Assembly: GCF_036226925.1 (NCBI RefSeq)
Contig: NZ_CP109031.1
Coordinates: 2,542,001-2,606,000 of the forward strand
Source: Streptomyces sp. NBC_00659
GTDB lineage: Bacteria > Actinomycetota > Actinomycetes > Streptomycetales > Streptomycetaceae
DNA length: 64,000 nt
Direction: 5' to 3'
Shown here: positions 44,862 through 46,970 of the stretch, one piece after another
How positions within the stretch are numbered: position 1 is the first letter of the stretch
How the letters are laid out: the number at the start of each line of letters is the position of its first letter
Position numbers and translations under genes: made by a program
The notes under the pieces: generated by a model
What the model was told of the DNA's origin: nothing
The model's input: only the letters and a program-made list of their open reading frames with translations
Database searches by the model: none

Positions 44862-46451
44862 TCAGCCGGCCTGGCCCCACGGCCAGTCCGCGTCCCGCGC
44901 CGACTCCAGAAGCGGAACCATCCGGAAAGCCGCGTCCGAGAGCCCCCCGAACGTGTGCCGGTTGCCCTTCCCCGAGGGGCCGTGGCCCGCGCGGTATCCG
45001 GCGAGGTTCCAGGTGTAGACCGGGATGTGCGCCGGGACCTGCTGGGTCGGGTCGCCGTAGTGGCTGTACGCGGCCTGCTCGTCGGTGACGATGAGGACCC
45101 GGTCGTGCTTCTTGTAGTGCGCGCGGACCGCCTCGCTGGTGTTGGTGCCGCCGAGGTCGCCGAACCGCTCGATGACCTTGAGCACCGACTCGCCCTCGCG
45201 GAACTTCACCCGCTTGCTGGTGGTGCCGAACTCGACGAGATCCGCGTCCGCCGCCCGCAGCGCGAGCGCCGTGCCGAAGATCGCCGCCGCGTCGGCCCGG
45301 TTGAGCTCGGAACGCTCCGACAGACGCGAGTAGAACATCGAGCCCGAACGGTCCACGAGCACCAGGGTCCGGCCGGGCAGCGCGGGCACGTTGGCCAGCG
45401 AGTGACCGAGCGCCTGCTCCAGCGGGTACGACCAGCGCAGCGACGGCGCGTGCCGGTAGGCCGCGAGGTAGCGGAACGGGAACTGCCGCGAGCGCGCGAC
45501 CTCCGCCGGGTCACTGATCTTCGCGGCGACCTGTGCCGCCACCTCGTCGCTGACGCCGGCCTCGTCGAAGTTGCGCAGGTTGCGGACGAGCGCCATGGCG
45601 CCCATGGACGGAATGACGGCCTCCCAGGCCGCCTTGTCCATCGGCCCCTGAAGCCAGCCCGCCAGCGCCTCCCAGGTCATCCCCGCGTCAGCCAGGCGCC
45701 GCGCCCCCTGCGCACCGGTCACGACCTCGCGCCGCTCGGCGGGCCGCAGCGTCATGAGGTCACGGTGGGCGGCCAGCACGGGCAGCGACGTGGGGACGAC
45801 GGCCGTGTCCGGGTTGTGGCGCCGGTCCAGCGCGTACTGGAACAGGTCGCCCTGCCAGGACTTGTCCGGGTCCGGCGCCGCGTGGACGAGGTTGAGGACG
45901 TCGCCGAAGCGGTACCCCTTGGACGCGGTGTCGTACTTCAGCAGCGACTTGCCGTGGTAGAGACGTCGTACGGCGTCGGCGATGCCCCGCTTGACGGGCT
46001 TGGGCACGTTGCGGCCGTACCGGGAGGTCCAGTAGGCGAGCAGCTCGCCCGGCTCGTCCGGCCGGCGCAGTACGGAGGCGACGACCTGCCGGTTGGCCGG
46101 ACCGTCGGTGGCGCCCGCGTCCAGGCGCGCCTTCACGTACTCGGCGGCGCCCACGAGCGCGGCCGTGCGCAGGTTTCCCTCTCCGCGCAGCCAGCCCAGC
46201 AGTCCGGCGGTCCAGGACGGGTCGGAGACGGCGAGCTCGCGCACGAGGGCGGCGAACCGGTCGTCGCGGGCCTCGCCGGTCTCGTAGAAGGTCTGCTGCG
46301 AGACGAAGTTGGCGATCGCCAGGAGGAAGAGCTCGGAGCGCGCGTCGCGCTCCTGGCCCCGGCCGCCCTGGTGCGTCCGCAGCACACGGCCGGTGGACGT
46401 CACGCGAGAAGTGGGCTGGGCCTTCGCGGCCTTGGTGTTGAAGCGTGCCAT
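44862..46451 (-). CDS. rsr: Ro60-type TROVE/vWA RNA-binding protein
   Basis: A 529-residue ring-shaped RNA-binding protein orthologous to Ro60/Rsr. The N-terminal TROVE HEAT-repeat domain spans about residues 15-355 (start FNTKAAKAQPTSRVTSTGRV). The C-terminal von Willebrand A domain has the MIDAS motif D367-x-S369-x-S371 and later VIERFGDLGGTNTSEAV and VLIVTDEQAAY. Ro proteins bind misfolded RNAs in the ring and Y RNAs on the outside; in Deinococcus the Y RNA tethers Rsr to polynucleotide phosphorylase. ATG at 46451 is preceded by GGGGGA. Three Y RNA genes lie directly upstream on the same strand, which strongly supports the assignment. Confidence 0.95.
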   Translation of the reverse strand: MARFNTKAAKAQPTSRVTSTGRVLRTHQGGRGQERDARSELFLLAIANFVSQQTFYETGEARDDRFAALVRELAVSDPSWTAGLLGWLRGEGNLRTAALVGAAEYVKARLDAGATDGPANRQVVASVLRRPDEPGELLAYWTSRYGRNVPKPVKRGIADAVRRLYHGKSLLKYDTASKGYRFGDVLNLVHAAPDPDKSWQGDLFQYALDRRHNPDTAVVPTSLPVLAAHRDLMTLRPAERREVVTGAQGARRLADAGMTWEALAGWLQGPMDKAAWEAVIPSMGAMALVRNLRNFDEAGVSDEVAAQVAAKISDPAEVARSRQFPFRYLAAYRHAPSLRWSYPLEQALGHSLANVPALPGRTLVLVDRSGSMFYSRLSERSELNRADAAAIFGTALALRAADADLVEFGTTSKRVKFREGESVLKVIERFGDLGGTNTSEAVRAHYKKHDRVLIVTDEQAAYSHYGDPTQQVPAHIPVYTWNLAGYRAGHGPSGKGNRHTFGGLSDAAFRMVPLLESARDADWPWGQAG

Positions 46452-46513
46452 GGTGAATTCCCCCGAATTCTTTCTACGACGATGACGTCGCGTTTCGGAG
46501 GGAGACACAGCAA

Positions 46514-46667
46514 ATGGAGGGTGCCCGAGGTCAGAAGTCGGCGACGGACTTGCGCAGATGCTCTACCGTTGAGCTACACCGACCCGAAGTCGATGACGGG
46601 ATTTGAACCCGCAACCCTCTGATCCCAAATAGAAGTAACCGTTGCCTGCGCACCGGGCACCCACCAT
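46514..46667 (-). ncRNA. Y RNA with permuted tRNA-like module, copy C (UGG loop)
   Basis: About 154 nt, immediately upstream of rsr. The outer stem is 9 bp plus 4 bp across a T.T mismatch (46667-46654 with 46527-46514). The Ro-type 5' motif is GGTGCGCAGG (46654-46645) and the 3' motif GACTT (46539-46535). The inner stem is GGCaACGG/CCGTcGCC (46646-46639 with 46547-46540). Inside, in order: anticodon-like arm (46635-46616) with 7-nt loop TTTGGGA, T arm GCGGG-TTCAAAT-CCCGT (46612-46596), acceptor 3' strand CATCGAC (46595-46589), loop TTCGG, acceptor 5' strand GTCGGTG (46583-46577), D arm GCTC-AACGGTA-GAGC (46574-46560). The order is circularly permuted relative to a tRNA. Transcript ends are inferred from pairing. 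Confidence 0.88.
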
Positions 46668-46672
46668 GAGCT

Positions 46673-46750
46673 GCGCCTCCCGAGATCAAGTCGGCCGCGG
46701 CATGGATTCTTTGGAAGAGAAGTAGCCGCGGCCCGCGCACCGGGAGGTGC
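46673..46750 (-). ncRNA. Compact Y RNA, copy B (anticodon-like hairpin only)
   Basis: About 78 nt between the two larger copies. Outer stem CCTCCCG (46747-46741) with CGGGAGG (46682-46676), extendable by two pairs past a mismatch. Ro-type 5' motif GGTGCGCGGG (46741-46732) and 3' motif GACTTGATCT (46692-46683), whose ACTTGA matches the vertebrate Y RNA. Inner stem is a perfect 9 bp, GGCCGCGGC/GCCGCGGCC (46733-46725 with 46701-46693). The terminal loop holds a TTCT-CTTCCAA-AGAA hairpin (46721-46707) with a 7-nt anticodon-like loop. There is no T arm, D arm or acceptor stem. Ends are inferred. Confidence 0.85.
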
Positions 46751-46762
46751 ATGAAGTTGTGG

Positions 46763-46904
46763 TGTCCAGAGTTCAGGTTCGGCTGAACCGACGTAGGTGC
46801 TCTAACCCCTGAGCTACACCGGCGCGTTGTACCGGTGGCGGGACTCGAACCCGCGGCCGCCCCATTATGAGTGGAAGTAGGTCCTGCCTTCGCACCTGGA
46901 CAGG
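46763..46904 (-). ncRNA. Y RNA with permuted tRNA-like module, copy A (CAU loop)
   Basis: About 142 nt, first of the three. Outer stem TGTCCA (46902-46897) with TGGACA (46768-46763). Ro-type motif GGTGCGAAGG (46896-46887), one base different from GGUCCGAAGG of human Y1. Inner stem GGCaGGACC/GGTTCaGCC (46888-46880 with 46789-46781). The module contains an anticodon-like arm TTCCA-CTCATAA-TGGGG (46876-46860), T arm GCGGG-TTCGAGT-CCCGC (46854-46838), acceptor 3' strand CACCGGT (46837-46831), 7-nt loop, acceptor 5' strand GCCGGTG (46823-46817), D arm GCTC-AGGGGTTA-GAGC (46814-46799). Same permuted order as copy C. The outer stem is the weakest of the three, so the exact ends are uncertain. Confidence 0.85.
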
Positions 46905-46970
46905 CATCACTTTAGGAGGGCGGCCGCGCGTCGGGCGAGCGAATTAAATCGCCGGGGAAACGACAGGAGT

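Follow-up and report, generated by a model that had tools for sequence, protein, structure and literature searches.

Why should a bacterial Ro60 gene be preceded by three differently built small RNAs, and what could such RNAs do for the protein that binds them? The question is raised by the gap upstream of the rsr gene of Streptomyces sp. NBC_00659, which lies in the stretch of 64,000 nucleotides analysed here (the window). A sequence-only reading had described three consecutive Y RNA-like units on the minus strand of this gap, and the units were found in place, with stems that pair, upstream of a genuine rsr. They are arranged in tandem and are named copies A, B and C; their positions and those of their parts are collected in Table 1.

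Table 1. Positions of the rsr gene, the three Y RNA units and their parts in the window.
Feature	Position	Strand	Description
Predicted -10 box	46909..46914	(-)	TAAAGT, just upstream of A, in register for a start near the 5' end of A
Y RNA copy A	46763..46902	(-)	Predicted Ro-binding stem and predicted complete permuted tRNA
Anticodon arm of A	46860..46876	(-)	5-bp stem UUCCA/UGGGG, 7-nt loop CUCAUAA
Triplet of A	46867..46869	(-)	CAU
T arm of A	46838..46854	(-)	Covariation
Capped acceptor stem of A	46817..46837	(-)	7 bp, cap loop begins A73-C74-A75-A76
D arm of A	46799..46814	(-)	Covariation
Y RNA copy B	46673..46750	(-)	Predicted Ro-binding stem and one short hairpin, without tRNA body, YrlB-like
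Hairpin of B	46707..46721	(-)	UUCU/AGAA, 7-nt loop CUUCCAA
Y RNA copy C	46519..46662	(-)	YrlA-type, predicted permuted tRNA body
tRNA body of C	46555..46621	(-)	Anticodon-stem-like helix, T arm, capped acceptor stem, D arm
rsr (bacterial Ro60 orthologue)	44862..46451	(-)	529 aa, ATG at 46451

The product of rsr fits a Ro60/Rsr protein, with a TROVE domain, a vWA fold and a MIDAS motif. Pfam TROVE was matched with 49.7 bits against a cut-off of 23 (the longer GTG-start ORF, 44862-46508, being used as query), and Ro60, SS-A/Ro and Rsr structures were the profile matches of the product. The AlphaFold2 model of the protein (pLDDT 82.4) found in Foldseek the TROVE/Ro60 structures 9kop, 9l5y, 1yvp and 2nvo as best matches, the last of them, the Rsr of D. 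radiodurans, with an E value of 7.9e-14, and residues D367, S369 and S371 of the MIDAS motif were invariant in 37 aligned sequences. The closest locus to the window's rsr belongs to the same genus (G024, 94% Rsr identity). A second rsr paralogue, 71% identical, is present in the same genome (G000:C1:816275-817783, plus strand, locus L039); it is accompanied by one B-like Y RNA only, in which CCGATGCGC replaces CCGGTGCG, and CCGATGCGC was also seen in the single Y RNAs of loci L042-L045 and L047. An RtcB gene exists in the genome, away from rsr.

The three units share a common frame. The Ro-type 5' motif GGTGCG..GG and the inner stem previously assigned to A, B and C are found in all of them, followed by UACUUC, and the inner-stem mismatch falls at the identical place in A and C. 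The closing stems are TGTCCAG/CTGGACA in copy A, GCACCTCCCG/CGGGAGGCGC with one mismatch in copy B and GGGTGCCCG/CGGGCACCC in copy C. Two further motifs of the sequence-only reading were recovered, since copy A contains GGTGCGAAGG, one base off the GGUCCGAAGG of human Y1 (human sequence as quoted in that reading), and copy B contains ACTTGA. The units adjoin rsr, each has a closing stem, an inner stem and an internal loop of Ro type, and both in sequence and in covariation they have the features of bacterial Y RNAs.

Comparison of the gaps upstream of rsr across Streptomyces, suggested with the first reading, showed that the stems are conserved and covary. Covariation was evaluated by five measures with 500 shuffles on chosen representatives (26 A, 20 C and 21 B sequences). 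For A and C, 0/500 shuffles reached the observed value on all five measures, with 97.1% (A, 26 sequences) and 94.9% (C, 20 sequences) of the cells paired in the drawn structures, and 12 pairs of A had changes on both sides against 3.5 in the shuffled sets (26 representatives). The drawn structure of B, made of closing and inner stems only, had 97.8% paired cells (21 sequences) and was above shuffles on three of the five measures, but not for pairs with two-sided changes (186/500) or pair types (500/500). Support from covariation is strong for A and C and less for B. The single-sequence folding energy was remarkable only in B (z -4.2), the values of A and C being -0.97 and -1.38.

The Rfam scan also proposed at that stage gave no match in the region at gathering score, although YrlA was matched below its gathering score (69 bits) by copy C with 41.5 bits and copy A with 32.9 bits; because these scores lie under the cut-off, A and C are called YrlA-type and not Rfam YrlA. 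In both copies the T arm, acceptor stem and D arm were found in permuted order inside the Ro stem. Judged by their sequences, A and C are predicted YrlA-type RNAs with permuted tRNA modules, and B is a predicted short YrlB-like form. The units are therefore differently built, as had been said, although the first reading missed the permuted tRNA modules of A and C and the anticodon-type loop that is present in A and often in B.

Inside the Ro stem of copy A the modules are ordered as anticodon arm, variable loop, T arm, capped acceptor stem, U8-A9 and D arm, and the UACUUC motif runs into the 5-bp anticodon stem. A set of 85 distinct A sequences (84 adjoining rsr and one orphan of the window's genome) was selected with a regular expression that contained the T and D arms and left positions 32-38 free. 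The anticodon stem was complete (5/5) in 84/85 sequences, and fully paired (100%) with two compensatory pairs in the 26 representatives; the variable loop measured 5 nt in 83/85 and the acceptor stem was complete (7/7) in 81/85. The acceptor cap loop often starts with A-C-C-A or A-C-A-A, N73 being A in 71/85 sequences with CCA or CAA next in 62/85, and CCA stands exactly at 74-76 in 20/85. These features are those of a complete permuted tRNA cloverleaf, which is predicted for copy A, folding energy alone being no proof of the fold. In the MFE fold the closing stem and four tRNA arms are present and the inner Ro stem is absent, and the centroid fold has no anticodon arm. Copy A is absent by the motif test in 34/120 rsr loci (27/113 without paralogue loci). 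A pattern scan of 392 genomes, in which 23/392 is no prevalence since the pattern was one N too long for the common form, yielded copy A sequences from five loci, all adjoining rsr.

ARAGORN placed a false tRNA-Met(cat) inside A (window 46829-46905, minus strand), with calls at roughly this position in several other loci. The orphan A-type Y RNA lies away from rsr (G000:C1:8497815-8497949, plus strand, locus L008), carries the loop CUGUAAA of tRNA-Tyr(GUA) and is followed by a hairpin that by eye is terminator-like.

YrlB is a Y RNA without a tRNA body, and copy B is likewise a Y RNA without a tRNA body adjoining a YrlA-type RNA. Its hairpin loop in the window equals the loop of tRNA-Gly(UCC). 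A competing register of this hairpin, with a tri-loop, is the MFE structure for the window's copy, and the 7-nt loop register is missing in 13/96 B sequences. An anticodon hairpin is absent from copy C, where the Ro stem takes the place of the anticodon loop; all four pairs of the anticodon-stem-like helix of C covary, yet only 82.5% of the cells are paired. Among 86 distinct C sequences the D arm was of class I in 49, of class II in 33 (which we take to be Leu/Ser-like), fMet-like in one and unclassified in three, and at least 20 nt precede the T stem in 26/33 class II and 0/49 class I sequences. Eighteen switches between classes were inferred on 83 taxa (shuffled labels: mean 26.6, minimum 19).

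The order of the units was surveyed in 125 rsr-bearing loci (45, including the window's own and paralogue loci, plus 80, with some species represented twice). The orders found were ABC (55), BC (23), AB (17), AC (11), B (6) and CB (3), with ACC, A, none, BB and ABB in 2 loci each, counts that are lower bounds because the detector overlooks some units, especially C, so that AB rows may hide a copy C. The closing stem is preceded at 8-13 nt by a TANAGT box, and in 87 aligned upstream regions the box's T, A, G and T are conserved at 98-99% and the fourth base is A in 90%; in locus L014, which is without A, the box is upstream of B. A sigma-70 consensus scan found no promoter. Units are separated by spacers of 10-12 bases, which suggests one processed transcript ending in rsr, and rsr is probably in one operon with the three Y RNA genes before it. 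Some 26 nt further upstream than the predicted -10 box, a TTAATTCG-like block is conserved at window 46940-46947 (minus strand); it may be bound by a regulator, or belong in part to the end of the preceding gene.

The loop of copy A combines fixed and changing positions. C32 and U33 were found in 85 of the 85 distinct sequences, U36 in 83, A37 in 78 and A38 in 84, and the triplets were CAU (33), GAU (26), CUU (10), GUU (5), GCU (3) and UCU (2), with GUA, CUC, GGU, CGU, ACU and UUU seen once each, the CUC case in a 6-nt loop. As reference, 45 distinct anticodon loops were taken from 55 distinct tRNAs among the 72 tRNA matches of the window's genome; C37 occurs in 0/45 of these loops and in 6/85 A loops. 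Exact loops of the genome's own tRNAs were found in 9/15 distinct A loops (75/85 sequences) and in 11/36 distinct B loops (34/83 sequences). The matches of B were above column shuffles (mean 3.0; 0/10,000) and those of A were not clearly above them (mean 6.6, P 0.054), both were above within-loop shuffles, and the matches were almost confined to the loop position. At the loci with a 7-nt loop in both copies, U was found at position 36 in 63/63 A and 3/63 B loops, and the triplets of A and B were identical in 0/63. Position 35 of A is A/T-rich despite the GC-rich genome, and position 34 is mostly C or G, like the neutral sites of these genomes. The tRNA G36-G37 rule was weakly seen in the distinct A and B loops (3/8 vs 2/41, P 0.026), and mutual information of A34/35 with other A columns or the B loop revealed no convincing pairing partner.

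The rates of change of these positions were estimated on a tree built from 120 distinct rsr genes, 87 taxa of which have copy A. Position 34 underwent 31 inferred changes, the maximum among the 140 positions of A, and position 35 underwent 21, the next fastest sites of A having 15-22; at positions 32, 33, 36, 37 and 38 the inferred changes were 1, 0, 0, 6 and 0. The 229 four-fold sites of rsr had a mean of 13.8 changes, 1.7% of them reaching 31 and 16.6% reaching 21. The fast position 34 is suggestive of diversification, short of proof; as its base mix is neutral-like, relaxed constraint could explain part of its speed, and recombination could inflate the change counts. The triplet as a whole changed 42 times on the tree (shuffled labels: mean 44.2, minimum 38) and has almost no phylogenetic signal, for which recombination could be another cause. 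An intact anticodon arm in which the triplet changes while U33 and U36 are fixed suggests that something reads the loop.

Similar arrays were found in other actinomycete families and in phages. Of 296 genomes of the class, at least 235 had matches to the covariance model of copy A, many of the weaker ones among the matches listed covering the tRNA part only (27-105/108), and full-length matches of at least 60 bits came from at least five other families among the matches listed. Some of these loci have up to four Y RNAs, and differing anticodon-type loops occur in one cluster, as in L224 (CUCUCAA and UUAGGGA), L220 (UUAGGGA and CUGUCAA) and L221 (CUUCCAA and CUGUUAA). Several Y RNA units outside Streptomyces are without the anticodon-type arm. 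The shortest units of L219, L220, L221 and L224 have a T-loop-like GGTTCGA..CC hairpin and neither an anticodon nor an ordinary D arm, and they appear to be a further reduced form.

A 40.8-bit YrlA match elsewhere in the window's genome (G000:C1, 3330136-3330248) was rejected, being actually two tandem tRNA-Asn genes, the one case inspected in sequence among the partial matches to the tRNA part; low YrlA scores and copy A model matches of 27-105/108 were for this reason not counted as Y RNAs.

Two DNA searches that used the RNA region as query returned a single record each, in one case a Mycolicibacterium plasmid matching over 37 bases and in the other Gordonia phage Cashline, where the copy A model places two units immediately before a Ro-like gene. 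An Rsr homologue is encoded in 90/50,697 phage records, and ten loci from ten records were inspected (nine of the 90, and Cashline). The Ro gene lies within a tRNA array in Streptomyces phages Alone3, LuckySocke, BRock, pSt2308 and GiJojo, all five with four or five Y RNA units upstream of Ro, and in Arthrobacter phage Atuin. An annotated tRNA-Arg(tct) of Gordonia phage VanLee (L241:1204-1275) lies inside a Y RNA (105.6 bits), as does an annotated tRNA-Ser(gct) in Alone3 and LuckySocke (L239:1274-1347 and L244:1274-1347; 41.2 bits), which indicates that some tRNAs annotated in phages next to a Ro gene belong to Y RNAs. Gordonia phages Rabbitrun and Neville have the same RNA with triplets UUU and GCU respectively, flanks identical up to the T arm and one anticodon-stem mismatch in both.

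The function tentatively proposed for these RNAs, with somewhat less than even confidence, is that of Rsr-bound tRNA or anticodon decoys, most likely for anticodon nucleases. The cluster would be transcribed and processed, and the shared stems are predicted to bind the Rsr ring. As tethered decoys, copy A would present a whole tRNA in permuted order, anticodon arm included, copy B little more than an anticodon-like hairpin and copy C a tRNA body without the anticodon loop. Enzymes that read anticodons may be trapped by these look-alikes, the likeliest being anticodon nucleases that belong to toxins, phages or defence systems; the captured enzymes would be inhibited, or the cut RNA would be passed to an exonuclease such as PNPase, and competition with anticodon-reading enzymes would drive the exchange of triplets.

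The Ro-type stems, the permuted tRNA parts and the anticodon arm of A are backed by sequence and covariation, and the invariant U33, the near-invariant U36, the rapid exchange at 34-35 and the repeated class switch of C by sequence; the Y RNA arrays beside Ro genes of phages, in some cases within tRNA arrays, also count for the decoys, as do the B loops that equal real tRNA loops, the split of the position-36 bases and the differing triplets of Rabbitrun and Neville. Against the decoys stand the neutral-like base mix of position 34, the ordinary folding energy of A and its centroid without the anticodon arm, the C37 of six A loops together with one ACU triplet and one 6-nt loop among the 85, the competing tri-loop register of B, the rsr loci where A is missing, the armless units outside Streptomyces, a number of real loops in A not clearly above chance and an RtcB gene that is not beside rsr. 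The Salmonella authors considered YrlA a possible competitive inhibitor of anticodon nuclease, and according to the part of that paper available here the anticodon nuclease seen in Salmonella did not cut YrlA (PMC7790460), though YrlA is described without an anticodon arm in the accessible text of PMC8394870. A broader claim is unlikely as it stands: Ro60 rings of actinomycetes and phages would carry a Y RNA library of tRNA/anticodon decoys, with A for U36 (ANN-decoding) tRNAs, B for others and C for class I/II bodies, and an arms race against enzymes that cut anticodons would drive the turnover of the anticodons on display. If true, this library would be an RNA-based immunity and counter-immunity device on Ro60.

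The main rival to the decoys is a classical tether with a freely drifting triplet, in which the tRNA body serves only to hold an effector (PNPase, for example) or to occupy a tRNA-shaped surface, the arm of A being kept for folding and positions 34-35 drifting unread. A Y RNA tethers Rsr to PNPase in D. radiodurans, as stated in the parts available of PMC4726728 and PMC8394870, the base mix of position 34 is like that of four-fold sites, and B and C would function without a full tRNA. However, the fastest site is flanked by the near-frozen 32, 33, 36 and 38, position 35 is A/T-rich in a GC-rich genome, entire loops of real tRNAs recur among the B loops more often than column shuffling yields, and the bases of position 36 are divided between A and B. 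A tether with an unread triplet is considered less likely than the decoys.

A different target is improbable: the look-alikes would titrate or recruit tRNA-modifying or processing enzymes (for t6A37, Psi55 or dihydrouridine, or RNase P, for example) and not nucleases. U36-A37-A38 is a requirement for t6A and is kept in most A sequences, and the frequent A73 followed by CCA or CAA also fits such enzymes. YrlA is modified by TruB and DusA, as reported in the accessible text of PMC8394870. The exchange at 34-35 is not explained by modification itself, and C37 in six A sequences does not agree with it. That these are permuted tRNA genes whose transcripts mature into functional tRNAs, as the presence of all tRNA parts in permuted order and the CCA placed exactly at 74-76 in some sequences would allow, is very hard to sustain, since the acceptor ends are capped, positions 27-29 belong to the UACUUC motif common to A, B and C, the Ro stems are conserved, C has no anticodon loop and ordinary tRNAs are already in the genome. 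Decayed or neighbouring tRNA genes resembling YrlA, a source of error illustrated by the tandem tRNA-Asn genes and by sub-threshold YrlA matches in 13/14 control genomes, are scarcely credible here, where the closing and inner Ro stems covary at a fixed place adjoining rsr.

The decoy proposal would connect Ro60 with tRNA damage and with defence against phages, and the results bear on why bacterial Y RNAs mimic tRNA and on the role of Ro60 outside Deinococcus. Y RNAs, tRNA mimicry and mixed YrlA/YrlB sets were already known. Neither an anticodon arm in a Y RNA nor its triplet turnover was found in the open-licence literature searched, which did not cover the main Y RNA papers, and within the same scope there was no report of a class switch like that of C or of two copies splitting the position-36 bases as A and B do.

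The YrlA of Salmonella (RF02553) likewise adjoins rsr and combines a Ro stem with a permuted series of T arm, capped acceptor and D arm. Its domain mimics the D, T and acceptor arms as described in the available part of PMC8394870, and compared with that description copy A adds a full anticodon arm with a variable triplet; in addition, the scores obtained here are below Rfam gathering and the RtcB gene is not beside rsr. The YrlB of the Salmonella rsr-yrlBA-rtcBA operon is a second Y RNA adjoining YrlA, as is copy B here, whose hairpin often has an anticodon-like 7-nt loop and which is likened to YrlB by the lack of a tRNA body and not by sequence. The cluster had been considered unusual for holding several differently built Y RNAs; they are differently built, but plurality alone is not new, because a mixed YrlA/YrlB set is known from the rsr-yrlBA operon of Salmonella (PMC7790460, available in part).

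The RYPER of D. radiodurans has in common with this locus an Rsr partner with a Ro-type stem and a matching Rsr fold, whereas the Streptomyces cluster has three RNAs, for which PNPase tethering is a possible role. In algae and archaea, circularly permuted tRNA genes have the 3' half preceding the 5' half; in contrast, the halves found here are enclosed in a Y RNA, with ends that look capped rather than processed. A proposal stated in the part available of PMC10264068 is that tRNAs of phages counter the anticodon nucleases of their hosts, and such evading tRNAs share with the present RNAs the variation of the anticodon loop, several phage Ro genes lying in tRNA arrays, whereas the Streptomyces RNAs would be Ro-bound look-alikes and not tRNAs of translation.
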